In this document: in pieces, positions 14,984 to 39,979 of the stretch | How the letters are laid out: each line of letters opens with the position of its first letter | How positions within the stretch are numbered: position 1 is the first letter of the stretch | Assembly (NCBI RefSeq): GCF_004331255.1 | Contig: NZ_SJOF01000001.1 | Location: 186,001-250,000 of the forward strand | Reading direction: 5' to 3' | Length of the DNA stretch: 64,000 nt | Source of the DNA: Acinetobacter sp. ANC 4173 | Lineage (GTDB): Bacteria; Pseudomonadota; Gammaproteobacteria; Pseudomonadales; Moraxellaceae | Position numbers and translations under genes: made by a program | The notes under the pieces: model-generated | Database searches by the model: none | Seen by the model: the letters and a program-made list of their open reading frames with translations, nothing else | Told to the model about the DNA's origin: nothing

Positions 14984-15023
14984 AAAAAAAACCGCAGCTT
15001 AAACTTTGATTGTTTAGCTACGG
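14984..15023 (-). terminator. Terminator ending the seven-gene catabolic operon
   Basis: An imperfect stem pairs CCGCAGCTTAAAC (14992-15004) with GTTTAGCTACGG (15012-15023). Eight A bases (14984-14991) give a T tract on the minus strand, directly after the aldehyde dehydrogenase gene. Confidence 0.75.
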
Positions 15024-15029: not shown

Positions 15030-16478
15030 TTAGAGACCTAAACACATATATTTGATTTCTATATAATCTTCAATACCATATTTAGAACCTTCTCGTCCCA
15101 GACCAGAAGATTTGACTCCACCAAAAGGAGCAACCTCAGTTGCCAGAACGCCTACATTAACGCCGACCATGCCATATTCTAGAGCTTCGTATACATTCCA
15201 AATTCGACCAACATCGCGCGAATAGATATAGCATGCTAAGCCAAACTCAGTATCATTGGCTGCTTCAATCACATCCTGTTCTGATGTAAATTTGAAGACT
15301 GGCGCCACAGGTCCAAAAATCTCTTCTCGGGCAACTCGCATATCTACATTCACATTTGTAAGTAATGTTGGCTCAAAGAAAGAACCACCTAATGAATGTC
15401 GTTTGCCGCCAACTAAAACTTCAGCCCCTTGATTGACAGCCTCATCCACTAAAATTTGCGTGTTTTTTGCTGCCTTTTCATCAATCATTGGACCAATAAT
15501 GGTTTCAGTTTCAATCCCATTTCCAACAGATAACTGAGCAATACGGTGAGCAAATTTTGTGACAAATTGCTCGTAGACACCTTCTTGTACATAGAAGCGG
15601 TTGGCACAAACACATGTTTGTCCTGCATTACGATACTTTGCAATTAAAGCACCTTCGACCGCAGCATCAATATCGGCATCATTAAATACAATAAATGGTG
15701 CATTACCACCTAATTCCATGGTGACTTTTTTCATAGTTTCAGCACATTGTCGCATGAGCTGAATACCAATCGGTGTCGACCCTGTAAACGATAATTTACG
15801 AACAACAGGATTCGATGTCAGTTCACCGCCTATTTCACTGGACTTACCAGTGACAACGTTGATTACACCAGCAGGGATACCTGCTTGTTCTGCCAATGCG
15901 ACTAATGCTAATGCAGAATATGGGGTTTGGCTGGCAGGTTTTAATACCATTGTACATCCAGCCGCTAAAGCAGGTGCAGCCTTCCGTGTAATCATTGCAG
16001 ATGGAAAATTCCACGGTGTAATCGCAGCACAAACACCAATAGGCTCTTTTGTGACAATCAGGCGACGACCTTTTTGATTAGTTGGAATTACATCTCCATA
16101 AATCCGCTTGCCTTCTTCTGCAAACCATTCTAAGTAAGATGCAGCAAAATTAATCTCACCCCGTGACTCGAATAGAGGCTTGCCCTGTTCTGCAGTCATG
16201 ATTTGCGCGAGATCTTCTTGATTCTCAAGAATTAATTTATGCCAAGCTAAAAGTTTTCGCGCTCTGTCTTGAGCTGTTAGATTTCTCCATTCAGGCAAGG
16301 CACGTTCAGCAGCTTCAATCGCTAGCTTAGTTTCCTCAGTTCCCATATTTGGAATCGTGCCAATTTTTTCCTGTGTTGCAGGATTGAGAACATCAACATT
16401 CAGACCAGAAATTGCATCACGCCACTGACCATCGATAAAACATTGTGTTTTAAATAAAGAAGTATTAGAAACTTTCAT
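15030..16478 (-). CDS. Succinate-semialdehyde dehydrogenase-like aldehyde dehydrogenase
   Basis: This 482-residue NAD(P)-dependent aldehyde dehydrogenase is of the GabD type. It has ITPWNFP (153-159), catalytic Glu255 (MELGGNAPF) and catalytic Cys289 (GQTCVCANR). The neighbouring Cys291 is typical of GabD enzymes. It is the last gene of the leftward operon, 69 bases behind the ThDP enzyme gene. It would oxidise a semialdehyde released by that enzyme to a dicarboxylate or other acid. Succinate or glutarate semialdehyde are the likeliest substrates from family resemblance, but specificity cannot be read from sequence. Confidence 0.88.
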   Translation of the reverse strand: MKVSNTSLFKTQCFIDGQWRDAISGLNVDVLNPATQEKIGTIPNMGTEETKLAIEAAERALPEWRNLTAQDRARKLLAWHKLILENQEDLAQIMTAEQGKPLFESRGEINFAASYLEWFAEEGKRIYGDVIPTNQKGRRLIVTKEPIGVCAAITPWNFPSAMITRKAAPALAAGCTMVLKPASQTPYSALALVALAEQAGIPAGVINVVTGKSSEIGGELTSNPVVRKLSFTGSTPIGIQLMRQCAETMKKVTMELGGNAPFIVFNDADIDAAVEGALIAKYRNAGQTCVCANRFYVQEGVYEQFVTKFAHRIAQLSVGNGIETETIIGPMIDEKAAKNTQILVDEAVNQGAEVLVGGKRHSLGGSFFEPTLLTNVNVDMRVAREEIFGPVAPVFKFTSEQDVIEAANDTEFGLACYIYSRDVGRIWNVYEALEYGMVGVNVGVLATEVAPFGGVKSSGLGREGSKYGIEDYIEIKYMCLGL

Positions 16479-16547
16479 TATTGCAAGTCACTCATCAAAG
16501 TTCGTTATGGATAGCACAGTGATCTGTATCACTGTGCTCTGCTCTGT

Positions 16548-18233
16548 TTAACGTGATGCGAGTGCATTTTCACGAATTTGCGTTAAACTCATTTTCGGTG
16601 TCAATGCTTCAGGATCAATCTGAATTTCAATTAGAGAAGGTCGGCCTGAATTTTGGCAGCGTTCAAATGCTGGGACAAACTGTTCAGTTTCATTCACAGT
16701 CTCTGAATGGAAACCAAATGCAGCAGCAAATGCGGCAAAGTCAGGATTAAACAATTCTGTACCTGAGACACGTCCAGGATATGAACGCTCTTGATGCATA
16801 CGAATCGTTCCGTACATTCCATTATTTACAACAATAACCACTAGATTCGCACCATAATGCGCTGCTGTAGCTAATTCTTGACCATTCATCAAGAAGCATC
16901 CGTCACCAGCAAATGCTATTACTGTCCGTTTTGGGTAAGTCAGTTTTGCCGCAACTGCTGCTGGCACACCATATCCCATAGAACCATTGGTTGGGCCGAG
17001 CAGTGTTCTGAATTTACGGTGTTGATAACCACGATGTACCCATCCGGTATAATTACCAGCACCGCAAGTTAAGATGCTGTCATGTGGTAATTGTTCATTG
17101 AGCCATTCAATGATTTTACCCATTTGTACTGGACCAGGGGCCGTTGGGAATGTACAACCTTCCAAATATTCTTCATTCAATGACTGTACTAGAGTATTGA
17201 AAGATGATGGTTTAATTGCTGGCAATGCTGCTAACTGAGCACTGATTTTCTGCATCCCCGCATTAATACCCAAAGTTGGTTGATAAACTCGACCTAACTC
17301 CTCAATACCTAAATGTACGTGCACCAATTTTTGCTTTGGTGTTGGAATATCTACTAGCGCATAACCACCAGTGGTCATTTCACCCAATCGAGCACCAAGT
17401 ACGATTAAAAGATCTGAATTTTTAACCGCGTTTTGTAGTGCTGGTCCTGCAGCCAATCCCAAATTACCAATGTATTGTGGCAATTTATTATCCACCAAAT
17501 CCTGACAACGGAATGACGCTGCGACAGGCAAATTCTGGGTTTGAATAAATTGGCGAACATTTTCTACTGCTGCTTCATTCCAACCGCCACCACCTAACAC
17601 CACTAATGGTTTTTCTGCCTCTTGAATTAATTGTTGTAATTCAAGTAATTCTTCATTAGATGCTGATGGTTCGATATGTTTTGCAGGCAAAGCATCTGCA
17701 ACATCGACAATATCTGTCAACATATCTTCTGGTAATGCAATGACTACTGGACCAGGTCGACCATTCATAGCACGATAGAATGCTTGATTAATCAATTCAG
17801 GTAAACGCTTTGCATCATCGACTTGAACAATCCATTTAGCCATTTCACCAAACATTCGGCGGTAATCAATTTCTTGGAAAGCTTCACGATCCATTTGATC
17901 ACGAGCAACTTGTCCAATGAACAAAATCATTGGCGTTGAATCTTGAAATCCAGTATGGATACCCACAGATGCATTTGTAGCGCCAGGACCACGTGTAACA
18001 AAACAAATACCGGGTTTACCCGTAAGCTTGCCGTAGGCTTCTGCCATATAAGCAGCACCACCTTCTTGGCGACATACAATTAAATCAATCTCTTCTTTTA
18101 CATCATGTAAGGCATCTAATACCGCTAAATAACTTTCACCAGGCACACAGAAAGCTCTTTCAACACCGTTCACCAATAAGGCATCAACCAATACCTGACC
18201 GCCTGTACGACCGGCTTTATTTTCAATAGTCAT
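16548..18233 (-). CDS. Thiamine diphosphate-dependent decarboxylase/carboligase (acetolactate synthase-like)
   Basis: The 561 residues show the three-domain ThDP fold. The N-terminal Pyr domain has the activating Glu57 (CRQEGGAAYMAEAYG) and TRGPGATNA, the central domain has LGGGGWN, and the C-terminal PP domain has AFAGDGCFLMNG, which opens the GDG-N cofactor motif, and VVNNGMYGTIR. No regulatory subunit is encoded nearby, so biosynthetic acetolactate synthase is unlikely. Its place between oxidoreductase, aminotransferase and semialdehyde dehydrogenase genes suggests decarboxylation of a 2-oxo acid to an aldehyde, as in the AruH/AruI arginine route of Pseudomonas. It starts 23 bases after the preceding gene in the operon. 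Confidence 0.82.
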   Translation of the reverse strand: MTIENKAGRTGGQVLVDALLVNGVERAFCVPGESYLAVLDALHDVKEEIDLIVCRQEGGAAYMAEAYGKLTGKPGICFVTRGPGATNASVGIHTGFQDSTPMILFIGQVARDQMDREAFQEIDYRRMFGEMAKWIVQVDDAKRLPELINQAFYRAMNGRPGPVVIALPEDMLTDIVDVADALPAKHIEPSASNEELLELQQLIQEAEKPLVVLGGGGWNEAAVENVRQFIQTQNLPVAASFRCQDLVDNKLPQYIGNLGLAAGPALQNAVKNSDLLIVLGARLGEMTTGGYALVDIPTPKQKLVHVHLGIEELGRVYQPTLGINAGMQKISAQLAALPAIKPSSFNTLVQSLNEEYLEGCTFPTAPGPVQMGKIIEWLNEQLPHDSILTCGAGNYTGWVHRGYQHRKFRTLLGPTNGSMGYGVPAAVAAKLTYPKRTVIAFAGDGCFLMNGQELATAAHYGANLVVIVVNNGMYGTIRMHQERSYPGRVSGTELFNPDFAAFAAAFGFHSETVNETEQFVPAFERCQNSGRPSLIEIQIDPEALTPKMSLTQIRENALASR

Positions 18234-18256
18234 TAGTAATATCTCTCAGTCAGGTT

Positions 18257-19453
18257 TTAAATTACAGAATCTTCAAGGAATGGACGATTTTCAATCACAC
18301 GTTGGAAAGAAAGCGGGCTTAAATCTAAAGCACGGTAATTACCATAGGTAATGAGTTCGCTTAATCCACGTCCGATTGCTGGAGCTTGTTGCAACCCATG
18401 ACCACTGAAGCCATTACAGAACAAGAAGTTATCTACTTCATTGTGAGGTCCAACAATTGCGTTATGATCTAGTACACAATAGTCATAATGGCCGGCCCAC
18501 GAGTTTACGACCTTAATCGCTTCAAACGCTGGTACTCGTTCAGCTAAGATTGGCCACACTTCTTCATCAAATTCTTCATGCAATACATCAAAGTCTTCTG
18601 GATCTACTTCTGGGTCAACCTTAGGATAAGTACCACCTAAATAGAACTGGCCTTCTGGGCGGAAAAAGACGCCTGTTGGATCAATTGTTAAAGGTACATT
18701 CCCCTCTAAAGGTGTGCGGCATGCAAATACGAAAAGTGAACGACGGCGCGGTTCAACCGGAATTTCGAGTCCTGCCATGCGAGCAACTTTAGCTCCACGT
18801 GTTCCAGCACAATTGACTAAAGTTCCACAACCAATAACATCACCAGTTTTGAGGCGGATACCTGTAATTTTATTGCCCTCTCGAATGATATCTACAACCT
18901 CATTCTCGATGTATTCAACGCCAAGAGAACGTGCTTTGCGACGGAAACCGTTTACCATTCCATAGTTATCAAACCAACCCTCATCAGCACGGCCAAAAGT
19001 TGCACCTTTAAGACTGTCCGTATTAACCCATGGGAATTTTTGTTTCAGTTGTTCAACATCTAATAAATCAATCTGAGCACCATTCTCAATTTGCGTATTA
19101 TGCAAACGCTTAAGTACATCAAATCCTTTATCATCAGCTAAGAATAAATATCCATTCTCATGAAAAGTTAAATCGGGTTTTTCACCATCAACTTGCATGA
19201 TTTCACCAAAATTACGGATAAAATCGGCGCCGTATTGTGAAATTTGAATATTGATTGGATTCGAAAACTGTACACGAATCGAACTACTTGATAATGCAGT
19301 CGCAGATTGTGCATAAGTAGGATCACGCTCAATTACTAATATTGAGCCATTAAAATCAGGGTTATTGGCAAGGAAGTACGCTGTAGAACTACCGTTTACT
19401 GCGCCACCAACAATAATGACATCATAGTTTGTTTTATTTGCTGTAGTAGCCAT
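18257..19453 (-). CDS. FAD-dependent amino-acid oxidoreductase (DAO family)
   Basis: This 398-residue enzyme has an N-terminal FAD motif (VIIVGGAVNGSSTAYFL, about 14-30) and the C-terminal NGFSGHGLQQAPAIGRGL segment of the D-amino-acid oxidase/sarcosine oxidase superfamily. Such enzymes oxidise secondary or D-amino acids to imino acids that hydrolyse to 2-oxo acids or aldehydes. Acceptor (oxygen or quinone/ETF) is unknown. Position in the operon, 29 bases after the dehydrogenase gene, suggests it acts on the amino acid released by HyuAB or on a downstream intermediate. It is not MnmC or GlpD. Confidence 0.82.
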   Translation of the reverse strand: MATTANKTNYDVIIVGGAVNGSSTAYFLANNPDFNGSILVIERDPTYAQSATALSSSSIRVQFSNPINIQISQYGADFIRNFGEIMQVDGEKPDLTFHENGYLFLADDKGFDVLKRLHNTQIENGAQIDLLDVEQLKQKFPWVNTDSLKGATFGRADEGWFDNYGMVNGFRRKARSLGVEYIENEVVDIIREGNKITGIRLKTGDVIGCGTLVNCAGTRGAKVARMAGLEIPVEPRRRSLFVFACRTPLEGNVPLTIDPTGVFFRPEGQFYLGGTYPKVDPEVDPEDFDVLHEEFDEEVWPILAERVPAFEAIKVVNSWAGHYDYCVLDHNAIVGPHNEVDNFLFCNGFSGHGLQQAPAIGRGLSELITYGNYRALDLSPLSFQRVIENRPFLEDSVI

Positions 19454-19482
19454 GGCTATATACCTTAAATCTTGTCTAAACG

Positions 19483-20295
19483 TTATTTCTTATCTTCAAA
19501 ATGACCAGCACCCGCAAATGCGCCACCGTGATAACGTGCAGCCGCATCATTTGGGTCTAAAGGCGGATGATTTGCGAATACTTTCTCACGGTAATCATCT
19601 GCACTATCTTCTGCAGCATAGCCAATCGAGGAAGCAAAGCGGTTATCCCATAACGTTTCACGATTATTAGACATACCGTATACAATCATGTGTGCCACAC
19701 GTGGTGCCTGCATTGATTTCACTACAATTTGAGTAAAATCATTAAATGACAACCACGTTGCTAACATTCTTCGATCAAGCGGCTCTTCAAAAGAGGAACC
19801 GATACGAATATTGACGGATTCAATGCCGAATTTATCCCAGTAATAACGGCCTAAATCTTCTGCAAAGCATTTGCTCAAACCATACAAACTATCAGGGCGA
19901 TGGGCAGCAGTCGCATCAATAGTTTCGGTACGATCATAAAAACCAATTGCATGATTTGAACTGGTATAAATGACGCGTTTAACACCATGTTGGCGTGCTG
20001 CTTCATAGATGTTGTACGTACCACGAATGTTGCCTTGCAGAATTAATTCAAACGTGTTTTCAACAGGTACACCACCTGCATGAATAATCACATCGACGTC
20101 TTTGGCTAAAGGTAAAACACTGTTAAAATCTGCCAAGTCACAACTTACACCCTCTTCATGCGCAGCTAGGTCACCTAAAGGTGCAATATCAGTTAGTCGC
20201 AAAATCTCGGCATAATCTTTCAAAGCCTCACGCAAAACACGTCCTAAACGCCCTGCCGCACCTGTAATTAAAATTCGTTTGAATTGTTTAGCCAT
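19483..20295 (-). CDS. Uronate dehydrogenase-like NAD-dependent SDR
   Basis: The 270-residue extended SDR closely resembles bacterial uronate dehydrogenase (Udh) in remembered sequence. It has TGAAGRLG (11-18), the SSNH segment (112-115), Tyr138 and Lys142 of the catalytic YxxxK, and the C-terminal YHGGAF motif. Udh oxidises galacturonate or glucuronate to aldarolactone. No other uronate-pathway gene is present, so the substrate may differ. GGAG is placed ideally before the ATG at 20295; a TTG at 20307 overlaps that ribosome site and was rejected. The gap from the aminotransferase gene is 19 bases. Confidence 0.8.
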   Translation of the reverse strand: MAKQFKRILITGAAGRLGRVLREALKDYAEILRLTDIAPLGDLAAHEEGVSCDLADFNSVLPLAKDVDVIIHAGGVPVENTFELILQGNIRGTYNIYEAARQHGVKRVIYTSSNHAIGFYDRTETIDATAAHRPDSLYGLSKCFAEDLGRYYWDKFGIESVNIRIGSSFEEPLDRRMLATWLSFNDFTQIVVKSMQAPRVAHMIVYGMSNNRETLWDNRFASSIGYAAEDSADDYREKVFANHPPLDPNDAAARYHGGAFAGAGHFEDKK

Positions 20296-20314
20296 GTTGT
20301 ACTCCAAATCTAAT

Positions 20315-21517
20315 TTATACGAGTGCTGCTAGTGCAGAACGCAATTGGGTCAATGCTTGTTGCAATTCCTTTTGGGATGTTGCAAACGACAATCGAATAT
20401 AAGGCTCTATCCCAAATGCAACACCAGGAATAGTTGCCACTTTTCCTTCTTGTAATAGATAGTTAGCTAAATCGGTGTCATTTTTGATGACGTCACCCTT
20501 AGGTGTTTTTTTACCAATAAATCCTTCACATTTAGGAAAGGCATAAAATGCACCTTCTGGCATCTTTAATTCCAATCCTTCAATTTCAGAAAGAGCCTGA
20601 ATCACCATCTGACCACGTTCGCGGTATTCTTTTGTTGATTCAGCAATGAAATCTTGAGGACCGTTCAAAGCAGCAATTGCAGCCTGTTGAGATACTGAAG
20701 AAGGACAAGTTGTGGTTTGTGACTGCATTTTATTCATTGCAGCAATTAGTTCTTTGGGTCCTGCAGCATACCCAAGACGGAAACCAGTCATTGCATACGC
20801 TTTAGAAACACCATTTACAATTAATGTGCGGTTTTTAAGTGCAGGACAGGCTTCTACAAATGAAACAAATGGCTTATCACTTAACACGATATGTTCATAA
20901 ATTTCATCAGACAAAATTAGAACATTTGGATGACGCTCAAGCACCTCACCTAATGCTGCTAATTCTGCTTTGCTATAAATCACACCCGTCGGATTACTTG
21001 GAGAATTCAACATAACCCAACGTGTTTTAGACGTAATTGCAGCTTCTAACTGATCGGGTTGAACTTTAAAATTCTGTTCAGTACCACACGGCAAAACTTT
21101 GGGTACGCCACCATTCAGTAAAGCCATATCTGTATATGAAACCCAATATGGCGCGGGTGTAATGACTTCATCACCTGGCTCTAAGGTCGCTAAGAAGGCA
21201 TTGAAAAGAATTTGTTTAGCACCATTACCTATACAAATTTCATCCTGAGAATAATCTAAGTTATTATCTCTTTTGAATTTCTTTACAACAGCATCACGAA
21301 GCTCTGGATAACCATTTGGTGCTGTGTATAAGTGATGTCCTTCAAGCATCGCTTTATAAGCAGCATCTATCACATGAGCCGGTGTTGAAAAATCTGGCTC
21401 TCCTAAACTTAAATTAATGACTGGCTCACCCGCTGCAGCCATCTGTTTTGCTAAAACAGAGACTGCCATACTAGGAGAACTCTTTACTTGTTGTACTCGA
21501 GTACTCTGGAATTGCAT
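20315..21517 (-). CDS. Class I PLP-dependent aminotransferase (AspC-like)
   Basis: This 400-residue fold-type I aminotransferase has the expected residues: NSPSNPTG (171-178), Asp204 and Tyr207 in SDEIYEH, the PLP Lys239 in SKAYAMTG, and a C-terminal Arg in IRLSFA that binds the substrate carboxylate. The overall pattern is of the thermophile-type aspartate/prephenate aminotransferases (subgroup I-gamma/AspC). Its ATG overlaps the hyuB stop by one base (TAATG), so it is translationally coupled. In context it would turn the amino acid released by the HyuAB amidohydrolase into a 2-oxo acid, although the neighbouring FAD enzyme could do the same. Confidence 0.87.
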   Translation of the reverse strand: MQFQSTRVQQVKSSPSMAVSVLAKQMAAAGEPVINLSLGEPDFSTPAHVIDAAYKAMLEGHHLYTAPNGYPELRDAVVKKFKRDNNLDYSQDEICIGNGAKQILFNAFLATLEPGDEVITPAPYWVSYTDMALLNGGVPKVLPCGTEQNFKVQPDQLEAAITSKTRWVMLNSPSNPTGVIYSKAELAALGEVLERHPNVLILSDEIYEHIVLSDKPFVSFVEACPALKNRTLIVNGVSKAYAMTGFRLGYAAGPKELIAAMNKMQSQTTTCPSSVSQQAAIAALNGPQDFIAESTKEYRERGQMVIQALSEIEGLELKMPEGAFYAFPKCEGFIGKKTPKGDVIKNDTDLANYLLQEGKVATIPGVAFGIEPYIRLSFATSQKELQQALTQLRSALAALV

Positions 21518-23184
21518 TATTTTGCTCCCCCTACAGGTGTATAGCCATAATCTGCTTCGGCTTGCTCTGGGCTGATATATCCAAAACGTACATCACGCTC
21601 AACAGACTCCCATGGGCGTTTACGAGGATCACCATATCCGCCACCACCTGGTAAACGTAGTACTAGACGACGATTTGCTGGAACTTGTTGTTGACCTTTG
21701 CCACGTAAAACCGTGCCATCATCTAATCCTACAAATCCTTTCGTACCATCCAAACCACCTTCACGTCCGCGTGCTGGGTAATTAATACGGTCAAACATGG
21801 CACTGAAACGGAACTCATAGCCTTCTGAAGCTGAAATCTCAATCTCTTGACCTAAACCACCACGTAAAGCACCAGCGCCGCCAGAACCATCACGGAATTC
21901 TTTACGCCAAACAATCACTGGACCAGCATGCTCTGTTGCTTCAACAGGCATGGTATGAACACCACTTGGGAATGCAGTTGCACTTAAACCATCAAGGTTG
22001 GCACGTGCTCCCATACCACCACTATTGAACATCAACATTTCTGCATTACGACCATTTGGATTCGTTGCCAGTGGTCGCACACTCATATGTAAGTTCCAAA
22101 GCGCACTTGCACCTTCCGCTGGTACAGTTCCATGTAAACACTTGTGTAATGCACCAAGCACAAGGTCAGGTACAAAGTGACCTAAAACATGACGTACTGA
22201 TACGGGTGCTGGATGTTTAGCATTTAAAATACAGCCTTCTGGAGCAACCACCTCAAAAGGTTCAAGCGATGCTGTATTATTTGGAATTTCAGGTGCCAAA
22301 ATACATTTCAAAGCATAGCAAGCATAAGCTTTGGCATAACCTAAAGGTACGTTAATACCGAACTGACTCATGCCTGAAGTGCCTACAAAGTCAGTTAAAA
22401 TACCATCTGGTCCAACTGTTAATGTCACTGAAAGTGTCACTGGCACATCGTAACCGTCAAGGGTCATGCTATTGGTATATTGACCACGAGGTAGAGACTT
22501 AAAACAATCCAATGTTGCTTTACGGCTATGCTCCAAGATAAAACCACCAATCATATCTAGATCGTTCAGATTGAACTCACGTAACATGTCGATTAAACGT
22601 AAATGGCCAGTTTCATTACAAGCAGACAGCGCATAGAAATCGCCAATTACACGGTCATTCTCACGCACGTTATGACGAATAAGATTAACCAGATCTTTAT
22701 TAACCTTGCCACGTTCAAACAACTTCATAACAGGGATAAATAAACCTTCTTCATATACTTCACGAGCATCTGGGCCAAAACCTCGACCACCGATATCCAC
22801 TACGTGTGCAGTACTAGCAAAATAGCCAATCAACTTGCCTTTATAAAATGAAGGAGAAACAATCGTAATATCATGTAAATGGCCTGTACCCTTCCACGGA
22901 TCATTGGTCACATAAACATCACCTTCGTAAATGTTATCCGCACCAATATCATTAATAAAATGGACAACAGCTTCGGCCATCGTATTCACATGACCTGGCG
23001 TACCTGTCACTGCCTGAGCAATCATTCGACCTTCGCGATCAAATACACCTGCTGATAAGTCACCTGCTTCACGCACACTCGTAGAAAATGCAGTTCGAAT
23101 CAGTGTTAAAGCTTGTTCTTCAACCACTGAAACCAAACGGTTCCACATAACCTGCATTTGAATATCAATTAAATTTGTTGTCAT
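21517..23184 (-). CDS. Hydantoinase B/oxoprolinase family subunit (HyuB)
   Basis: The 555-residue protein belongs to the Hydantoinase_B family. Recognisable blocks are FSTSVREAGDLSAGVFD near residue 28, NDPWKGTGHLHDITIVSP around 92-109, and the C-terminal LPGGGGYGDP. It works as a heteromer with HyuA, encoded 23 bases upstream, to hydrolyse a cyclic amide with ATP. Characterised relatives act on hydantoins, N-methylhydantoin, 5-oxoproline or caprolactam. The substrate here is not determinable. Length fits the separate B subunit rather than the fused 5-oxoprolinase. GAGG precedes the ATG. Confidence 0.9.
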   Translation of the reverse strand: MTTNLIDIQMQVMWNRLVSVVEEQALTLIRTAFSTSVREAGDLSAGVFDREGRMIAQAVTGTPGHVNTMAEAVVHFINDIGADNIYEGDVYVTNDPWKGTGHLHDITIVSPSFYKGKLIGYFASTAHVVDIGGRGFGPDAREVYEEGLFIPVMKLFERGKVNKDLVNLIRHNVRENDRVIGDFYALSACNETGHLRLIDMLREFNLNDLDMIGGFILEHSRKATLDCFKSLPRGQYTNSMTLDGYDVPVTLSVTLTVGPDGILTDFVGTSGMSQFGINVPLGYAKAYACYALKCILAPEIPNNTASLEPFEVVAPEGCILNAKHPAPVSVRHVLGHFVPDLVLGALHKCLHGTVPAEGASALWNLHMSVRPLATNPNGRNAEMLMFNSGGMGARANLDGLSATAFPSGVHTMPVEATEHAGPVIVWRKEFRDGSGGAGALRGGLGQEIEISASEGYEFRFSAMFDRINYPARGREGGLDGTKGFVGLDDGTVLRGKGQQQVPANRRLVLRLPGGGGYGDPRKRPWESVERDVRFGYISPEQAEADYGYTPVGGAK

Positions 23185-23207
23185 TGTAATAACCTCTAAT
23201 GCCTGCC

Positions 23208-25283
23208 TTAACGCTTAACAACCAATAAGCAGCCGTCTGGTTGAACAGTTGCAGTGAATGAAGATGTAACAAATGTAGAAGTCTCACGCTCAGCAATGAT
23301 TGCAGGACCATCTATTTGAGCGCCAATATTCAAGTTTTCACGCTGATAGATATTTGCATCAATAAAATCGCCTTTAACGACATCAAAGACTTTACGTTGT
23401 GCGATTGGCTCAGCTTGATGTGTTGCTTCGATCTGTTCTACAGGTACGACTGGAGCAAGAGGTGAGCTTGCTTTAACAGACCAACTCACAATCTCGACAT
23501 CAGGACCTTCAATTGGTCGACCAAAGAATGTGGTATAGGCTTGTTCAAATGCACTTTTAAATACTGCTGCATCATCTTGACTAAATGTTTTAAAGCCTAA
23601 TTGAACAGGAATTTCCCAACCTTGTCCGACATAACGCATAAATGCCGTACATTCCTTCTCGATATCCCCTTCAGGCATACCTTGACGTAAGAAACCGATG
23701 GCTTCTTGTGTCATATCATCAATCAAACTATTGATTTGTTTAGCATCAAATGTTGAAAGACGTGCAAATGAACTACGCACTGCTTCATAGCCAAAAGGTG
23801 CACGTAAGAAACCAATCGCAGAACCGACACCCGCACCAGCAGGAACAATAAAGCGTGATACACCCATTTTTTCACAAAGACGTGCTGCATGTAGCGGACC
23901 ACCACCACCAAAAGTAATCATGGTGAAATCCGAAATATCTTTACCACTTTCTACAGCATGAACACGACCAGCATTTGCCATGTTTTCATCTACAACTTCA
24001 CACACACCATAGGCAGCGGTTTTTGCAGCAAGCTGTAAAGGATTACCAATCACTTTCGCCATTGCTTCGTCAGCATTGTCTTCTGAAAGTAGGATTGCTC
24101 CACCGGCAAAATTCTTAGCATCTAAGCGACCTAATAAAAGGTTTGCATCTGTAATTGTTGGCTCAGTACCACCACGGTTATAACAAGCTGGACCAGGTTC
24201 AGACGCTGCACTATGTGGCCCTACACGAATTTGGCGCATACTATCGATACTGGCAATCGAGCCACCACCCGCTCCAATTTCAACCATCTCTACAACAGGA
24301 ATTGAAATTGGCATTCCGCTTCCTTTTTTGAAGCGATATGTTCTAGCAACTTCGAATGTTTTTGCAGTTTTCGGTACTTGCTGTTCAATTAAACAGATTT
24401 TTGCTGTTGTTCCACCCATATCAAATGAAACAACTGAATCAAGTGAATATTTACGGGCAATATCTGCTGCGAAAATAGCACCACCAGCAGGACCAGATTC
24501 TACGAGACGAACTGGAAATTCAGCAGCACTCTCTACAGAAATAATTCCACCCCCAGAGTGAATCATGAACACTGGGCACTGAGCGCCTTCTTGTTTCAAT
24601 GTCACCACTAAGCGATCTAAATAAGACTTAATAATTGGTTTTACATAAGCATTTGCACACACAGTGTTGAAACGCTCAAATTCACGCATTTGTGGTGAAA
24701 CTTCACTCGAAATCGAAATTGATACTTGCGGTAAACGAGCAGCTAGAGCTTCACGTAACTTACGTTCATGCTCTCCATTCATATAACTATGGATAAAGCC
24801 AATAGCCACACTTTCATAATTACCTTGAGCAATTTGCTCAACAACATCATCTATGTCTTGTTGTTGTGGTTCGATTAACACATTGCCATCAACACCAATA
24901 CGTTCTTTTAATGTATAACGGTGTTCACGTTCGATTAATGGCGGTGGTAATGAAATATTAATATCATACTGCTCAAAACGATTCTCTGTTCTCATTTCAA
25001 GAGTGTCGCGAAAACCTTCAGTAGTGATAAATGCAGTCTTTGCACCTCTACGTTCAATCAATGCATTGGTTGCTAAAGTTGTACCATGAATTAATTGATC
25101 AATATCTGCTAAGGTTACACCTGCTGTCTTAGCGACCTGAGACACACCTTTTAGAATTGCACGTTCAGGGAGTTCGTAGTCAGTAAGGACTTTTGTCGAA
25201 TGGATGACTCCATTTAAATCCAAAGCGATATCGGTGAATGTTCCGCCAATATCAACACCAACACGACAGATTGAAGTCGTCAT
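23208..25283 (-). CDS. Hydantoinase A/oxoprolinase family ATP-dependent subunit (HyuA)
   Basis: HyuA is the ATP-binding subunit of an ATP-dependent cyclic amidohydrolase. The N-terminal VGVDIGGTFTDIAL phosphate loop belongs to the Hydant_A_N domain (about 6-180). A Hydantoinase_A core (about 200-490) follows, with HSGGGI, SFDMGGTTAK and FGGGGPLHA. A C-terminal domain runs to residue 691. I start at the ATG at 25283, preceded by AAGGT. An in-frame extension to 25373 adds a hydrophobic, unrelated leader and was rejected. It is the first gene of the seven-gene operon, divergent from the LysR gene across a 615-base AT-rich gap. Confidence 0.9.
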   Translation of the reverse strand: MTTSICRVGVDIGGTFTDIALDLNGVIHSTKVLTDYELPERAILKGVSQVAKTAGVTLADIDQLIHGTTLATNALIERRGAKTAFITTEGFRDTLEMRTENRFEQYDINISLPPPLIEREHRYTLKERIGVDGNVLIEPQQQDIDDVVEQIAQGNYESVAIGFIHSYMNGEHERKLREALAARLPQVSISISSEVSPQMREFERFNTVCANAYVKPIIKSYLDRLVVTLKQEGAQCPVFMIHSGGGIISVESAAEFPVRLVESGPAGGAIFAADIARKYSLDSVVSFDMGGTTAKICLIEQQVPKTAKTFEVARTYRFKKGSGMPISIPVVEMVEIGAGGGSIASIDSMRQIRVGPHSAASEPGPACYNRGGTEPTITDANLLLGRLDAKNFAGGAILLSEDNADEAMAKVIGNPLQLAAKTAAYGVCEVVDENMANAGRVHAVESGKDISDFTMITFGGGGPLHAARLCEKMGVSRFIVPAGAGVGSAIGFLRAPFGYEAVRSSFARLSTFDAKQINSLIDDMTQEAIGFLRQGMPEGDIEKECTAFMRYVGQGWEIPVQLGFKTFSQDDAAVFKSAFEQAYTTFFGRPIEGPDVEIVSWSVKASSPLAPVVPVEQIEATHQAEPIAQRKVFDVVKGDFIDANIYQRENLNIGAQIDGPAIIAERETSTFVTSSFTATVQPDGCLLVVKR

Positions 25284-25898: not shown

Positions 25899-26798
25899 AT
25901 GCAAAAGATGACTTCAAGAACATATCCTTCCACTATGTCACTTCGATGTTTTGAAGCTTCAGCCAGATATTTAAGTTTTACAAAAGCAGCTCAAGTCCTC
26001 CATATGACGCAGAGTGCAATTAGTAAACAAGTTGCTCATTTAGAAGATAGTCTAAATATTCAACTCTTTGAACGATCATTACAGCGCTTACAACTCACGC
26101 CTACGGGAAAACTCTTTCTAAAAGAAACACAGATTATTCTGAATCAAATCGAAATATCTGTTTTAAATGTACTTGCACATCGTAATGAGGCAGATACCTT
26201 AAATCTTGCTGCTCATCCTACATTATGTTCCCGTTGGCTTATTCCGATTTTAAAGGGTTTTAGTGACACCAACCCTCAGATTCATTTGGAATTTCAAGAG
26301 CAGATCAGCTCCTCAGATATTGATATTAGTCAGATTGACGTTGCTTTTTTATATGGAGATGGCGTTTGGCGAGATATGACCAGTATCAAGTTATTTGAAG
26401 AAAGCTGTATTGCGGTAAGCTCACCCGATTTAATCAGTGCACCATTAAACAAAATTGAAGACTTCCAAAATTATGTGCTCATCCAGTCTCGTGCAAGGCC
26501 CCGAGTTTGGGATGAATTCTTTCAAGCACAAGATTTCAGCCATGAAAAGACGTTTATTGGACCCAGATTTGATACATTTTCAGCATGTGTAAACTCTGCA
26601 ATGATTTGCTCAGGAATTGCATTAATACCTAAATTTTTTGTAAAAAAAGAACTGGAAAGTGGTGAGCTCATTCAAGTTTGGCCATATGAAATGCAGACCA
26701 ATAGGTCTTACTATATGATTTATCCAACTTCTATGTCGCAAACACCTAAAATCACCACGATGGTGCAATGGATTAAAAACCGACTCGAATCTGATTAA
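25899..26798 (+). CDS. LysR-type transcriptional regulator (GcvA-like)
   Basis: The 299-residue protein has the LysR winged helix-turn-helix (about 15-70: LRCFEASARYLSFTKAAQVL, then MTQSAISKQVAHLED). A periplasmic-binding-protein-like effector domain (about 95-295) follows. The opening resembles the GcvA/AmpR branch. It is divergent from the seven-gene catabolic operon, the usual position for a LysR activator of that operon, so regulation of hyuA onwards is inferred. AGAGGA precedes the ATG. The 3' end overlaps an inverted repeat (26787-26816) that may act as a terminator. Confidence 0.9.
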   Translation: MQKMTSRTYPSTMSLRCFEASARYLSFTKAAQVLHMTQSAISKQVAHLEDSLNIQLFERSLQRLQLTPTGKLFLKETQIILNQIEISVLNVLAHRNEADTLNLAAHPTLCSRWLIPILKGFSDTNPQIHLEFQEQISSSDIDISQIDVAFLYGDGVWRDMTSIKLFEESCIAVSSPDLISAPLNKIEDFQNYVLIQSRARPRVWDEFFQAQDFSHEKTFIGPRFDTFSACVNSAMICSGIALIPKFFVKKELESGELIQVWPYEMQTNRSYYMIYPTSMSQTPKITTMVQWIKNRLESD

Positions 26799-28097: not shown

Positions 28098-28128
28098 ATC
28101 GGCCTTATTTACACAATATAAGGCCGAT
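28098..28128 (+). terminator. Terminator-like hairpin after the hisC-like gene
   Basis: ATCGGCCTTAT (28098-28108) pairs with ATAAGGCCGAT (28118-28128) about a nine-base loop. The downstream tract is T-rich but interrupted. Confidence 0.65.
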
Positions 28129-28134
28129 TGAAAT

Positions 28135-29100
28135 TTATTTTTTGCTTAAATAATGTTCTGAAGAATCATTAAAACTCAATATACTGCAAAGCCCTATAAT
28201 TGAAGCAAGCATTAAATAGAATGCAGGGATATACGGATTACCCGTAACCTCAATTTACCAAGCATTCAGCATTGGTGCAGTTCCCGTAAACAAAGCAACG
28301 CCAATATTATAGCTGATCGCCATTCCTGTATAACGGACATGAACAGGAAACAAAGAAGGTAACATCGCCAGAATACAACTGAATAAACTAGCCCAACAAA
28401 GACCGAGTCATGAGATTCCTAAAATTTTGAAACCAAGTTCTGGCTTATAAATTAGGTAGAACGATGAAATCGCCATAATCAAAACCCCAAAAGCACCGAA
28501 CATCATCATGATTTTCCGTGAAGTCTTTATTGCGATACATGTAAATATTGGAATACAAATAAGAAAAATTAGTAAAAACATAGATATAAAGATTGTAATA
28601 ACTCCTTTTTCAAGGGTTTCAACTAATGAAAAGATTGTTCCTCTTTTTCTTATTTTTTTCAAAATCGTCGCTTTCGTGGAAATGGCGACGAATATATATC
28701 CCGATCAGACTCAAAGATGCCGCTAAAAAAATGGTAATCTCCCCCATTCCATCATTTGCTCAGTCGAAAGCAAGGAAAAATAGGTTGCTGTTATAATAAG
28801 ACCGAAAAGAAATCCTGCAATACACCCCACTTCAATCAAGCTAGTTGCGAAAGTTCAATTATTATCATTACTGTGCTCTACCACAAATATTGCAGCACTA
28901 CATACTTCACCACCAGCAGATAGATCCTGTATTAATCGCAATATAATCAATAAGATTGGAGATAGAAAACCAATGTGTGTATAGGCGGGTAATAGACCAA
29001 TACCCAAAGTAGCACCCACCATTAACCATAACGCCAGACTTAATGCCGCTTTTCAACCAATAGTGTCACCAATCTAACCCAATAATATCCCCCAATATCT
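28135..29100 (-). pseudogene. Decayed MHS-family (ProP/KgtP-like) MFS transporter
   Basis: Reading the minus strand across frames recovers clear metabolite:H+ symporter landmarks. IGDTIG*KAALSL stands near 29050, followed by LLPAYTHIGFLSPILL, RLIQDLSAGGE (family consensus RLLQGLSAGGE) and VEHS. Near the other end are LPSLFPVHVRYTGMAISYN and VTGNPYIPAFYL. At least three in-frame stops (TAG, TGA, TAA) and frameshifts interrupt it. About the first 60-70 residues, including the first membrane helix, are absent. The remains are about 320 codons of a normal 430. It probably once imported the substrate of a nearby catabolic unit, but cannot work now. Confidence 0.85.
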
Positions 29101-29146
29101 TTCGTCTAGTTTTATAAAAAATCTTCTAATGATTTTTATTCAAGAT

Positions 29147-29204: not shown

Positions 29205-32150
29205 TTACACTGCCTGAAGTCTATGATTAAGAATCTGAATTGGATGAAGTGCCTGTTCCTGCTGCAATCGTTTAATCTGACTACGACAAGAATAACCTGT
29301 AACTAGAAAGCTCGTCCCATATTCAACTTGCTTCTCCTGCCAAGATTGCTGATAAATTTGCTCAGAAAGATGGCGATGTTCAGCCTCATGACCATAAGTT
29401 CCAGCCATGCCACAACATCCCAGAGCCAATGACTCGAGTTCAATTTCAAAAGCTTTAAAAATAGTTTGCCATTGTGCCGTAGATGCAGGAACCTGAGTCC
29501 GCTCTGTACAATGACCCGCCAAAAAATATTTTTGACTAGAAACGGCTGGTAAAGCTGGTAAGGAGTTTAACTCTAACCACTCCTTCAGCCACTCCTGCAA
29601 CATTAATACGTTAAATGACTCTTCTGGTGGTTCATGATCATATTGAGCCTTATATTCTTGTCGATAAACCAAAGTCATTGCAGGGTCTATCCCAACTAAA
29701 GCAATACCACTTTGGGCAGCTTTGCTTAACAATAACGACGTTTCACTTCTAAGTTCTTCAAACTCTTTGATAAATCCATGCACATGCAACGGTTTACCAT
29801 TGGGGAAATATGGCAAAATATAAGGCTGTAGACCCAATTTACGAATAAACTGAATTGTTTCGATAAATACGGGGGTATCAAAATATCGGGTAAAAGCATC
29901 TTGAACCAAAATTACAGCTTTATTTGAGGACTGAGGCAAGTTAGATAAATCACCATTTAACAAAATAGCACCCAGTTCAGATATATCAGCTTTTGCTTGA
30001 GGGTGAAATAAAGGTATATCAACCACTTTAAATACGTCTCGTTGAACAATTTGAACTAATTTCATTTTTTGAAAAAAGTTATATAAGCCTGAAAAATTAG
30101 ACATTAACGGCATAAAACGCTCGAGATTACTAATTAAATAATCTCGAATTGAATGCTTATATCTCGCATGATATTTCTGTAAAAATCTGGCTTTACTATC
30201 AGGAATATCCACCTTCACTGGACACTGACCAGCACAAGATTTACATGATAAACAACCGTGTAGCGCATCATAAACTTCTACATCAAATGCTTGGCTTTGC
30301 TCTCCTGAGTTTTCTCGACGCAACCATTCTTTGACCAACGTTGCACGCCCTTTTGGAGAATGAATGCGATCACGTGTCACTTTATATGAAGGGCACATGG
30401 GGTCATTTACATCAAAATTAAAACAAGCGCCATTTCCGTTACAGTGCATAGTTGTCGAAAATTTTTGCCAGTCTTTTCTCGAAATTTGCTTGTCGAAGTC
30501 TCCTCTTAATGGAGCCTCCAATAATTTAATCAACTTTGCCTTTGGCTGAGTATCCGGTGTTGCGATTTTACCGGGATTAAGCTTATTCAATGGATCAAAA
30601 ATGGCCTTAACTCTTTGAATTAATGGATAAGCTTCACCAAAAAAAATGGGTGCATATTCTGAACGCAACCCTTTTCCATGTTCTCCCCAAATTACGCCAC
30701 CATATTTATGCGTTAGCTCAACGATTTTATCGCTAATCAATTGAACTAATTTTGCGGAATGGGCATCCTTCATATCCAATAAAGGTCGCACATGTAAAAC
30801 TCCTGCATCCACATGCCCAAACATTCCATAGTCTAGGCCATTGCTATCAAGTAATGCTCTAAACTCTGTAATATAGTCTGCCAAATACTCTGGAGGAACG
30901 GCCGTATCTTCCACGAAAGGTTGCGGGCGTTTTTCACCAACAACATTTCCAAGTAGTCCTACAGAACGTTTACGCATTGTGTAAACGTCCTTAATTTCAT
31001 CATCACCATTCGCCAAAGTCATACTTAGCCGCTTAACACTTTGGTCATTCTGTAAATGCTGTATGAAATTAGTCTTTAAAACATCAAGTTCGTCCTGTGT
31101 TTCCGCATCAATCTCAACTAGATTGATTCCTTGTATTTGCAACGGTGAGGCAGGTTCAGGGAAATATTGCCCAACTTTTTGCCACACAATATCATTCTTC
31201 GCTAAGTTTAGAACTTTCGAATCTACAGTTTCGATAGATAATGGATTAAGCGCCATCAATGCTTTCGCATCTTTTAAAGCATTTTGGAAATTATCATAAC
31301 CAATATTAATTAAGGCACGACACTTCGGTATCGGTAAAACATTTAATTTTGCTTCAACAATGAATCCTAAAGTCCCTTCACTTCCACACAGAATATTATT
31401 GATGTTCAGTTCTTGCTTATCATAAAGTGCAGGTAAATCATAACCAGTTAAAGAACGATTCAGCTTAGGAAAACTTTTTTCAATCAATTCTTGATTATTC
31501 TCTGTAATATCAAGTAATTGCTTATATAAATTTTGCTGAAATGCAGATTTGTGTGACAGAACAGAAGCAAGTTCAGTAATCTTGATCGTCTCTGACTCAA
31601 GTAATTCACCATTAATTAATACTGTTTTTAAGCCAAGTACATGATGGTGTGTCTTTCCATAACGACAACTCCCCTGACCACTCGCATCAGTATTAATCAT
31701 GCCACCTATAGTGGCACGATTTGATGTTGATAACTCTGGCGCAAAAAACAAACCATGTTTTTTTAACTCCAAATTCAATTGGTCTTTCACCACGCCTGCT
31801 TCTACAATTGCCGTACGTTGTATTGGATCTATATGAATGATTTTATTCATATATCGAGATAAATCGACCACTAAACCATTAGTTAGTGATTGCCCATTCG
31901 TCCCAGTACCTCCTCCACGTGGCGTGATGACTAAATTAGTATATTGCTCCAAATTAACCAACTGCATCATCGACTGAATATCGTCAATGTTTTTTGGATA
32001 TATAACAACTTGTGGAATAACCTGATAAATCGAGTTATCTGTTGAATTTACAAATTTGGCTGCCTCTGACTCATCAATATCACCATAAAATAATGGTTTT
32101 AGCTGATTAATAAAGTCTTTGATTACAATATTCTGGGCTGGATCTGTCAT
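29205..32150 (-). CDS. YdiJ-like FAD/Fe-S D-2-hydroxy-acid dehydrogenase
   Basis: This 981-residue modular oxidoreductase has an FAD-binding PCMH domain (about 45-190, TPRGGGTGTNGQS) and an FAD-oxidase C domain (about 225-500). A ferredoxin-like region has CLSCKSCAGQCPVKVDIP. The C-terminal cysteine-rich part has GHCTERTQ and LGCCGMAGTYG. The architecture is that of YdiJ, members of which have been reported as D-2-hydroxyglutarate dehydrogenases, rather than short GlcD. It follows a DUF1338 gene by 44 bases on the same strand. Because DUF1338 enzymes make D-2-hydroxyglutarate from 2-oxoadipate, the pair suggests a 2-oxoadipate to 2-oxoglutarate branch. Substrate is inferred. Confidence 0.85.
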   Translation of the reverse strand: MTDPAQNIVIKDFINQLKPLFYGDIDESEAAKFVNSTDNSIYQVIPQVVIYPKNIDDIQSMMQLVNLEQYTNLVITPRGGGTGTNGQSLTNGLVVDLSRYMNKIIHIDPIQRTAIVEAGVVKDQLNLELKKHGLFFAPELSTSNRATIGGMINTDASGQGSCRYGKTHHHVLGLKTVLINGELLESETIKITELASVLSHKSAFQQNLYKQLLDITENNQELIEKSFPKLNRSLTGYDLPALYDKQELNINNILCGSEGTLGFIVEAKLNVLPIPKCRALINIGYDNFQNALKDAKALMALNPLSIETVDSKVLNLAKNDIVWQKVGQYFPEPASPLQIQGINLVEIDAETQDELDVLKTNFIQHLQNDQSVKRLSMTLANGDDEIKDVYTMRKRSVGLLGNVVGEKRPQPFVEDTAVPPEYLADYITEFRALLDSNGLDYGMFGHVDAGVLHVRPLLDMKDAHSAKLVQLISDKIVELTHKYGGVIWGEHGKGLRSEYAPIFFGEAYPLIQRVKAIFDPLNKLNPGKIATPDTQPKAKLIKLLEAPLRGDFDKQISRKDWQKFSTTMHCNGNGACFNFDVNDPMCPSYKVTRDRIHSPKGRATLVKEWLRRENSGEQSQAFDVEVYDALHGCLSCKSCAGQCPVKVDIPDSKARFLQKYHARYKHSIRDYLISNLERFMPLMSNFSGLYNFFQKMKLVQIVQRDVFKVVDIPLFHPQAKADISELGAILLNGDLSNLPQSSNKAVILVQDAFTRYFDTPVFIETIQFIRKLGLQPYILPYFPNGKPLHVHGFIKEFEELRSETSLLLSKAAQSGIALVGIDPAMTLVYRQEYKAQYDHEPPEESFNVLMLQEWLKEWLELNSLPALPAVSSQKYFLAGHCTERTQVPASTAQWQTIFKAFEIELESLALGCCGMAGTYGHEAEHRHLSEQIYQQSWQEKQVEYGTSFLVTGYSCRSQIKRLQQEQALHPIQILNHRLQAV

Positions 32151-38493: not shown

Positions 38494-39237
38494 TTAAGAC
38501 TGTTTTTTTACAATTTTAGAACCACCGACTACTTGTGAGGTTGGGAATACCTCGAAACGCGATACATCTACTGCTTGTGGTAGTTTCAATGCAGTTACAA
38601 TCAGCTCAGCAATATCTTCTGGCATTATCGACTCATATTCATCATACAATTCTGATTGCACTTTATTTTGCTCAATTGCCGTACGATATAAGTTAGTTTG
38701 TACTCGTCCTGGTACGATTTCAGTCACACGAATACCTTTACCAATCAGATCACAACGCAATGCATCACAGAACAAACTAATACCCGCTTTAGAAGCGCCA
38801 TATACTGTTGAGTTTGGATGCGGAGTTAAACCAGCACTTGAGCCAATAAAGAACACGTGACCTTTGCCACGTTCAATCATGGCTGGCAGCGCTTCGCGGG
38901 TTAAATGCAATGGCGCTTTGAGGTTAATATCCAACATTGCATCAATATCACTATGTTCAATATTTTGGAATTCTGAACGCGTGGTTAAAACGCCTGCATT
39001 GTTCACAACAACATCTACTTCATAACTGAGAAAGAGTTCTTTTAACTGATTGTAGTCACGAACATCTGCCTGAATTGCTTTGACATTTTCGATGCCATCA
39101 AACTCCTGCAACAAATCCAAATTACGACCTAATGCTAATACTTGAATACCCTGCCCTGCTAATGCCAATACAATTGCTTTACCAATACCACTGGTTGCAC
39201 CTGTCACTAAAGCAGTGTTATAGATATGATTAAGCAT
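38494..39237 (-). CDS. Short-chain dehydrogenase/reductase (downstream of pair)
   Basis: This classical SDR of 247 residues has TGATSGIG near residue 13, the NNAG motif, catalytic Ser in GSSAG, and Tyr-x3-Lys in VYGASKAG. YdfG-like serine/3-hydroxy-acid dehydrogenases look similar. I start at the ATG at 39237, which overlaps the upstream SDR stop by eight bases. A GTG at 39252 is possible. Overlap indicates coupled translation with the other SDR, so the two may act in sequence or as a complex. Substrate unknown. Confidence 0.82.
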
Positions 39238-39979
39238 AGATATATCCACCACTTACGATCACGTTTTCACCAGTTGCATAGCTATTACGTGAACTACCCA
39301 TCATAACAATCCATTCTGCAATTTCTTTTGGCTCAGCAGCACGTTGTAATGGATTTGCTGCCGCAAGTTCACCCAAAAAGCCCAGTTGTTTAGCACGTTC
39401 AGTTGCAAAACCTGCAGGTGCAACTGAGTTCACTAAGATTTGATCTGGTGCGCACGCTTGTGCAAAAGATTTTGTTAAGCTGACCACCGCAGCTTTAGTT
39501 GCTGCATAGTGGGCATTTTGCGGATGAGCTTTAAATGCGTCGACCGAAGTAACATTCACAATACGGCCAGTAACCATATCTTGCCCTACAAATTGCTGCA
39601 TATGGCGTACTGCAGCGACCATCATGTGGTAAGTACCTTTAATATTTACAGCATTTTCTAAGTCCCATTGCTCGTCTGTAATACTAAAAATATCTTCACG
39701 TGGATAGATTGCTGCACTATTCACTAAACAATGAATACGCCCAAGCTCATCTGCAATTTGATTAAATGCGCCATGAGCCGATTCTAATCGAGAAATATCG
39801 CCTGCTGCCGTGGCAACCTGAACACCTAATGCACGTAGTTCAGCTGCAGCTTTATCCATCAGTTCCACATTACGATCAATGATTCCGATTTTAGACGCGC
39901 CATGCTCACACATTAGCTTTGCTGTTTCAAACCCTAAGCCTGAAGCACCACCTACAATTACAACAGATTGATTTTTCAT
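39230..39979 (-). CDS. Short-chain dehydrogenase/reductase (upstream of pair)
   Basis: The 249-residue classical SDR has [11 protein letters not shown] near residue 10, the NSAA motif (variant of NNAG), VTSVDAF in place of the usual Ser-containing strand, and YAATKAA with catalytic Tyr and Lys. It lies between the APC permease gene and a second SDR, all leftward. The gap from the permease gene is 73 bases, so a permease-SDR-SDR transcript is likely. This suggests an imported amino or hydroxy acid is oxidised by the two reductases, an inference. Confidence 0.82.

Follow-up and report, generated by a model that had tools for sequence, protein, structure and literature searches.

The window analysed here is a stretch of 64,000 nucleotides from Acinetobacter sp. 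ANC 4173 (contig NZ_SJOF01000001.1, positions 186,001 to 250,000), in which positions 15030-25283 are occupied by seven co-directional genes: hyuA, hyuB and genes for an AspC-like aminotransferase, a uronate dehydrogenase (Udh)-like short-chain dehydrogenase (SDR), a DAO-family flavin adenine dinucleotide (FAD) enzyme, a thiamine diphosphate (ThDP) enzyme and a GabD-like dehydrogenase (Table 1). The open reading frames of the original prediction, which had been made from the letters of the DNA, were all confirmed and the seven family calls agreed with Pfam and NCBIfam searches. In transcription order the intergenic gaps measure 23, -1, 7 (or 19), 29, 23 and 69 bases, five as predicted and the third depending on the ambiguous start of the SDR gene, since a TTG start leaves 7 bases and an in-frame ATG 12 bases further in leaves 19. 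The expected terminator was found past gabD as a hairpin (-14.5 kcal/mol, z = -4.6, with 0 of 200 shuffles equally good) followed by eight U; it was not listed by a simple terminator scan of the window, probably because its stem has a bulge. The divergent LysR gene (25899-26798) was likewise found, separated from the operon by 615 bases, and a 95% identical regulator holds the equivalent position in A. sichuanensis. G+C content is 41.6% for the operon, not far from the 39.2% of the window.

Table 1. Operon genes and associated features, in positions of the window.
Feature	Coordinates	Strand	Description
hyuA	23208..25283	-	HyuA-like ATP-binding subunit, ATP-dependent lactamase, 691 aa
hyuB	21517..23184	-	HyuB-like metal-binding, lactam-opening subunit, 555 aa
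Aminotransferase (AspC-like)	20315..21517	-	Class I aminotransferase, AatA/AatB-like
Udh-like SDR	19483..20307	-	Uronate-dehydrogenase-like; proposed hemiaminal-to-lactam dehydrogenase
DAO	18257..19453	-	DAO-family FAD enzyme; proposed cyclic secondary amine dehydrogenase
ThDP enzyme	16548..18233	-	PRK08199 subfamily; proposed 2-oxo acid decarboxylase
gabD	15030..16478	-	GabD-like semialdehyde dehydrogenase
Intrinsic terminator	14984..15023	-	Hairpin past gabD, then U8
LysR-type regulator	25899..26798	+	Divergent; Pfam LysR_substrate and HTH_1
SDR_b	39230..39979	-	Short-chain dehydrogenase, 82-85% identical to SDR adjoining hyuA in 11 Pseudomonas-type loci
SDR_a	38494..39252	-	Short-chain dehydrogenase, 60-65% identical to second SDR adjoining hyuA in the same Pseudomonas-type loci
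Amino acid permease (GABA permease-like)	40053..41456	-	Upstream of SDR_b; membership by position only
EamA gene	37557-38417		Downstream neighbour of SDR_a
YdiJ-type D-2-hydroxyglutarate dehydrogenase	29205..32150	-	Candidate final step

The amide-opening step assigned to HyuAB in the original prediction is supported by the domains of both subunits (Pfam Hydantoinase_A, Hydant_A_N and Hydant_A_C in HyuA, Hydantoinase_B in HyuB) and by conserved ATP and metal motifs. Asp11 of the HyuA ATP motif was present in 88 of 90 aligned rows, the other two being gaps, and Asp288 in all 90. In HyuB, Asp42, His102, Asp105 and His127 were found in 91/91 rows and aligned to the metal site of chain 6yra_B, which we take to be CapB. 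The second metal-site Asp is numbered 102 in this chain and D101 in the excerpt of PMC8453981 used here.

Among solved structures the Udh-like SDR matched uronate dehydrogenases (PDB 3rft/3ay3, E ~1e-80; 46-49% identity), and its model (mean predicted local distance difference test score, pLDDT, 86.4) superposed on Udh with Z 35 and a root-mean-square deviation (rmsd) of 1.5 over 254 aligned residues, the next fold reaching Z 27.8. In Udh, Tyr136 and Lys140 are catalytic and Arg174 binds the substrate carboxylate. These residues as well as His113 and Ser165 were conserved in all 48 HyuAB-linked Udh-like rows. Position 75 in the PDB numbering used here, which corresponds to Ser74 of PMC4476818, was Pro in 37 of these rows (the window included), Gly in six, Ala in three and Ser in two, so that the serine was replaced in 46/48; eight control rows from outside HyuAB loci carried Ser (five), Ala (two) or Thr (one). 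Position 112 was Val in 30, Asn in 17 (the window included) and Ile in one of the 48 rows, compared with Asn in seven controls and His in one. According to an excerpt of PMC4476818, the substrate carboxylate is the chief recognition element of Udh and the Ser74 position contacts the C2 hydroxyl. Because Arg174 is kept and position 75 replaced, the Udh-like SDR seems, judged against few controls, still to bind the ring carboxylate with the site near C2 changed. What is required is an amino-acid-like ring whose hetero atom stands between a carbon bearing the carboxylate and a C-OH that can be oxidised, and from this we infer 6-hydroxypipecolate (the hemiaminal of aminoadipate semialdehyde) as the candidate substrate type; its product would be 6-oxopipecolate, a lactam suiting HyuAB.

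The DAO enzyme (Pfam DAO; model mean pLDDT 78.9) was closest in its modelled fold to sarcosine oxidase beta (Z 40.7, rmsd 2.8, 377 aligned) and next to Pyrococcus L-proline dehydrogenase (Z 39.7, rmsd 2.8, 367 aligned), with NikD lower (Z 33.5), and is proposed to act as a cyclic secondary amine (imino acid) dehydrogenase. The aminotransferase matched PDB 6f35 (E 3e-133), and Lys101 and Arg375 were conserved in 58/58 rows of the alignment; in the aspartate aminotransferase of Thermus, the distal carboxylate is held by this Lys. GabD passed the succinate-semialdehyde dehydrogenase model TIGR01780 (706.2 bits, cut-off 646.35) and did not reach the narrower NF008415 (801.8 of 828 bits). Taken together, the HyuAB motifs, the Lys101/Arg375 pair and the TIGR01780 match of GabD fit a dicarboxylic skeleton from HyuAB onwards. 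The ThDP enzyme scored 868 bits with NF006052 (cut-off 539) and carries Glu57 in 29/29 rows. With 243.6 bits on the AruI model NF005712 (cut-off 500), it makes the AruH/AruI route cited originally a loose analogue only, whereas the implied succession of transamination, ThDP-dependent decarboxylation and aldehyde oxidation is plausible.

Gene content was compared in the best 80 of at least 591 HyuB loci of the genome_contigs database, a set in which close relatives are over-represented and some loci stop at contig ends (e.g. L053). It was scored by tblastn with named queries, including two SDRs encoded elsewhere in the window (SDR_a and SDR_b) and KdgD, at identity thresholds of our own choice: 45% for the Udh-like SDR, DAO, aminotransferase, ThDP enzyme and SDR_a, 55% for SDR_b and KdgD, and 65% for GabD. 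HyuA was found in 79 loci, the aminotransferase in 51, the Udh-like SDR in 40, DAO in 39, SDR_b in 33, SDR_a in 27, the ThDP enzyme in 24, KdgD in 18 and GabD in 13. All seven genes recurred in identical order in 13 loci, mostly from Pseudomonas, which demonstrates the conserved synteny proposed originally as a check and bears out a single operon. Two of the 13 (L040 and L049) are operon copies lying near each other on one P. putida 700447 contig. Six genes without GabD were present in 11 loci, and HyuAB, aminotransferase, Udh-like SDR and DAO without the ThDP enzyme in two; shorter versions of the operon occur in Rhizobiaceae and Burkholderiaceae. Six Burkholderiaceae loci of the 80 carry electron transfer flavoprotein (ETF) genes, and DAO may therefore feed ETF there.

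The Udh-like SDR accompanied DAO, co-directionally, in 39 of 39 DAO loci and occurred without it in a single locus (L104). SDR_b (33/33, always with the Udh-like SDR as well) and SDR_a (27/27) were confined to DAO loci, and KdgD was never found together with DAO (0/39) or the ThDP enzyme. From these co-occurrence counts, DAO and the Udh-like SDR are a fixed module to which SDR_a and SDR_b are an add-on, and the ThDP enzyme (with or without GabD) and KdgD look like alternative drains. SDR_b and SDR_a stand immediately before hyuA in nine of the 13 full seven-gene loci. The originally predicted span thus covers the seven genes and leaves out the two SDR genes (38494-39979), whose relatives adjoin hyuA in Pseudomonas.

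Within the genus, HyuB matches at E 0.001 were obtained in 5 of 175 Acinetobacter genomes; three hold orthologues with 95-100% identity (the window's own genome, G281 and G312) and the other two are remote (24-28%). The nearest named relatives among the matches listed were A. sichuanensis (98%) and Acinetobacter sp. MB5 (95%). HyuB identity was still 85-88% in L040-L052, the Pseudomonas-type loci, of which one is recorded as Pantoea, and came to 74-77% in DAO-class Rhizobiaceae loci. Given orthologues in 3/175 genus genomes and such identity outside the genus, the operon was probably acquired by Acinetobacter. Relatives are also numerous on plasmids, with matches at E 1e-150 in 171 records that include plasmids of R. 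leguminosarum and pSYMBR3459 of Paraburkholderia. In a HyuB tree of 94 rows (a quick method, with several long branches), KdgD loci fell among DAO-bearing lineages and DAO loci were scattered, and in view of this interleaving the two classes do not look like separate families.

We propose, with a probability of roughly 0.38, that the operon catabolises a pipecolate-type cyclic secondary amino acid, with 5-hydroxypipecolate as the best single guess. Oxidation of the C6-N ring bond by DAO would yield a cyclic imine and, after hydration, the 6-hydroxy hemiaminal. The Udh-like SDR would convert this with NAD to a delta-lactam of the 6-oxopipecolate type, that is, the uronate dehydrogenase reaction with ring nitrogen in place of ring oxygen and the carboxylate at the equivalent place. 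ATP-dependent opening of the lactam by HyuAB would produce a 2-aminoadipate-type acid (2-amino-5-hydroxyadipate), which the aminotransferase would turn into a 2-oxo diacid, the ThDP enzyme decarboxylate to a five-carbon semialdehyde acid and GabD oxidise to 2-hydroxyglutarate. A YdiJ-type enzyme could complete the route to 2-oxoglutarate. Epimerisation of the ring hydroxyl is a possible role for SDR_a and SDR_b, and substrate uptake one for the permease; the LysR protein probably regulates the genes.

In this scheme the amide is probably an intermediate rather than the starting substrate, since the DAO-Udh pair of 39/39 DAO loci fits best upstream of HyuAB. The original prediction, in which a cyclic amide was the starting compound, is probably wrong on this point, given that DAO always comes with Udh and given the order DAO-Udh-HyuA-HyuB-PLP-RidA (PLP, pyridoxal phosphate enzyme) in locus L128. 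The Udh-like step had been called hard to place; it is indeed puzzling if an amide comes first, and it gains a place if DAO and Udh precede HyuAB. The order DAO, Udh, HyuAB, PLP enzyme is the firmest part of the proposal and the six-membered ring the next. The weakest is 5-hydroxypipecolate itself, suggested by the link to D-2-hydroxyglutarate dehydrogenase and doubtful as the actual substrate. According to an excerpt of PMC12299671, legumes commonly contain 4- or 5-hydroxypipecolic acid, and 4,5-dihydroxypipecolic acids are likewise known from them.

KdgD with the aminotransferase and without DAO or the ThDP enzyme was found in 18 of the 80 loci, and the KdgD of L096 passes the equivalog cut-off (403 of 374 bits). 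On Agrobacterium and Ensifer plasmids (L126 and L131), such clusters consist of RidA, a polar amino acid ATP-binding cassette (ABC) transporter, HyuA, HyuB, aminotransferase and KdgD. The Ensifer cluster additionally has an aldehyde dehydrogenase, 78-83% identical to one near the Rhizobiaceae ThDP loci L033, L054 and L061. The amino acid matching the C6 2-oxo diacid of KdgD would be 2-amino-4,5-dihydroxyadipate and the lactam 4,5-dihydroxy-6-oxopipecolate. L128 encodes, in order, DAO, the Udh-like SDR, HyuA, HyuB, a D-serine-dehydratase-type PLP enzyme, RidA and an amino acid ABC transporter, a succession resembling that of the proposed reactions. Its host replicon is a Klebsiella pneumoniae plasmid typed as conjugative, with insertion sequence (IS) elements (IS3 family, IS903B) flanking both sides. 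Amino-acid-type transporters also adjoin the cluster in Rhizobium, Paracoccus, Agrobacterium, Pseudochrobactrum and Paraburkholderia records. A Pseudosulfitobacter plasmid locus (L127) combines HyuAB with LysR and a tripartite ATP-independent periplasmic (TRAP) transporter; no aminotransferase, DAO or Udh match was obtained there, and an aminotransferase is annotated further along.

YdiJ-type enzymes in Rhizobiales and Acinetobacter and the KdgD sister clusters both point to hydroxypipecolates ending at 2-oxoglutarate. A wider and rather unlikely version of the proposal is that Proteobacteria share a modular hydroxypipecolate route with Udh-family oxidation of hemiaminal to lactam and ATP-dependent opening by HyuAB. 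Mono-hydroxy substrates would then drain through the ThDP enzyme, a semialdehyde dehydrogenase and D-2-hydroxyglutarate dehydrogenase to 2-oxoglutarate and dihydroxy substrates through KdgD and 2-oxoglutarate semialdehyde to the same product, with the two paired SDRs setting the ring-hydroxyl stereochemistry.

SDR_a, SDR_b and the permease (TIGR01773 568 bits, below the cut-off of 678) lie about 13 kb from the operon and probably belong to the set. At E 1e-50, SDR_b was found in 2/175 genus genomes, both operon carriers. The YdiJ-type protein, so called because it narrowly misses the cut-off of model NF049975 (1335.8 of 1350 bits), was found at E 1e-150 in 11/175 genomes, namely all three operon carriers and 8 of the 172 others; in G281 the match is partial, lies at the end of a contig and contains one stop, and in G312 it is on a different contig. 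The hypergeometric probability of association with the operon is ~2e-4 for each of SDR_b and YdiJ, kinship of the genomes being ignored. YdiJ sits between fadR and SDR_b in seven of the nine Rhizobiales ThDP loci among the 80, and the ThDP gene of Paracoccus yeei has a gene for a GlcD-like FAD enzyme (215 of 568 bits) as its neighbour. The YdiJ enzymes of E. coli and Pantoea are strict for D-2-hydroxyglutarate, according to an excerpt of PMC9504171. No CsiD (glutarate hydroxylase) match was obtained in the genome, which speaks against a plain glutarate drain through CsiD. At another site of the genome a KdgD passes its cut-off (417 of 374 bits), and its chemistry is thus not confined to such clusters. 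Adjoining the YdiJ-type gene is an HglS-like gene (32195-33550), with EamA and glutamate dehydrogenase-like genes nearby. Its product was considered as a 2-oxoadipate drain and dropped, as it is divergent (118.8 bits, cut-off 550) and was found at E 1e-50 in 2/175 genus genomes, one without the operon; it was left out of the scheme. A decayed gene in several frames (28120-29110, minus strand), by eye of the major facilitator superfamily (MFS) transporter type, separates a HisC-like gene from the YdiJ-type gene.

Several observations weigh against the proposed pathway, whose substrate is predicted from the convergence of neighbouring genes. HyuAB, Udh-like SDR and DAO occur without aminotransferase or ThDP enzyme in 13/80 loci, and neither DAO nor KdgD is present in 23/80. 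Ser75 is kept in 2/48 and Asn112 in 17/48 of the Udh-like rows, three of the eight controls also lack Ser75, and the Udh of Oceanicola, in which Ile takes the place of Asn, retains poor activity on uronates (excerpt of PMC4476818). The pipecolate oxidase model NF050086 matched the DAO protein weakly (20.8 of 600 bits). At E 1e-50, SDR_b was not found in the third carrier G281; YdiJ is present without the operon in Acinetobacter genome G234, and for none of the 13 Pseudomonas-type loci (L040-L052) was it found in the flanks, which extend about 5 kb beyond the ThDP gene. The neighbours of a Shinella plasmid cluster are taurine- and dipeptide-type transporters instead. Finally, L104 (Falsochrobactrum) mixes HyuAB, aminotransferase and Udh-like SDR with KduI, KdgD and mannitol dehydrogenase-type genes, and with KduI and KdgD present its substrate may be a true amino-uronate.

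Four other explanations were weighed. HyuAB could act first on an imported lactam or hydantoin, the resulting amino acid being transaminated, decarboxylated and oxidised with DAO and Udh as a side branch. The position of hyuAB at the start of the gene order agrees with this, and an imported amide is plausible for the KdgD-class loci, which pair HyuAB with the aminotransferase and an amino acid transporter and lack DAO. However, it offers no step for DAO and Udh, which occur jointly in 39/80 loci, and the gene order of L128 differs, so that we consider it unlikely. Oxidation of an amino sugar acid at its hemiacetal by the Udh-like SDR, with HyuAB opening an aminoaldarate lactam, would account for the close Udh homology, the retained carboxylate Arg and the KdgD, KduI and tartronate semialdehyde reductase genes of some loci, but Ser75 is replaced in 46/48 rows, KdgD is absent from all 39 DAO loci and DAO is left unexplained, which makes this quite unlikely. 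A five-membered, (hydroxy)proline-type substrate, passing through a 5-oxoproline-type lactam and (hydroxy)glutamate to a C4 semialdehyde for GabD, is improbable: Udh acts on six-membered pyranoses, the KdgD of the sister clusters implies C6 and the link to D-2-hydroxyglutarate dehydrogenase finds no explanation. In its favour are the GabD match to the succinate semialdehyde dehydrogenase model, the likeness of the modelled DAO to L-proline dehydrogenase and the inclusion of 5-oxoprolinases in the HyuAB family (excerpt of PMC8453981). That HyuAB opens an N-alkyl lactam resembling N-methylpyrrolidone, DAO strips the N-alkyl group and GabD oxidises the semialdehyde is very improbable, since the HyuAB, DAO and succinate-semialdehyde dehydrogenase-type genes are together here but the aminotransferase, ThDP enzyme and Udh would have no role and amino acid transporters stand beside related clusters.

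If the pipecolate-type pathway is true, it represents an unrecognised catabolic route for cyclic amino acids and explains why many HyuAB "hydantoinases" of rhizobia, pseudomonads and burkholderias stand beside amino acid transporters and sugar-acid-type enzymes. The Udh family would gain a new chemistry, from hemiaminal to lactam, gene sets carried by large plasmids, symbiotic ones among them, would be linked to plant hydroxypipecolates, and new names would be needed for HyuAB genes currently labelled hydantoinase or oxoprolinase.

In agreement with the original prediction, no described pathway with this seven-gene set or of this kind was found in the open-licence literature searched, nor, by title and start of the abstract, any bacterial catabolic pathway for 6-oxopiperidine-2-carboxylic acid. 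Every enzyme family is known; neither their combination nor the hemiaminal-to-lactam role proposed for a Udh-family enzyme was found described in that literature. Caprolactam degradation by CapAB of Pseudomonas jessenii likewise uses an A/B pair that opens a lactam with ATP, and the ATP and metal motifs correspond, but both window subunits score below the cut-off of 1000 of the CapAB equivalog models NF050156/NF050157 (HyuA 477.3, HyuB 183.3 bits) and the described route is not known to include a DAO, Udh-like or ThDP gene. With the AmaA-AmaB route for pipecolate and lysine, flavin oxidation of a piperidine acid toward the 2-aminoadipate skeleton is shared; there an aldehyde dehydrogenase oxidises the open semialdehyde, whereas here the lactam would be made and then opened with ATP, and no AmaB above the cut-off was found in this genome (best 279.5 of 730 bits). 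The nmp cluster for N-methylpyrrolidone shares HyuAB, DAO and succinate-semialdehyde dehydrogenase-type genes but is not known to have an aminotransferase, ThDP or Udh-like gene. The Udh of the oxidative uronate route with KdgD has the same fold, catalytic Tyr and Lys and carboxylate Arg as the window-type SDR, which differs from it in the replacement of Ser75 and in its linkage to HyuAB and DAO, with KdgD present in one (L104) of the 40 Udh-bearing loci.

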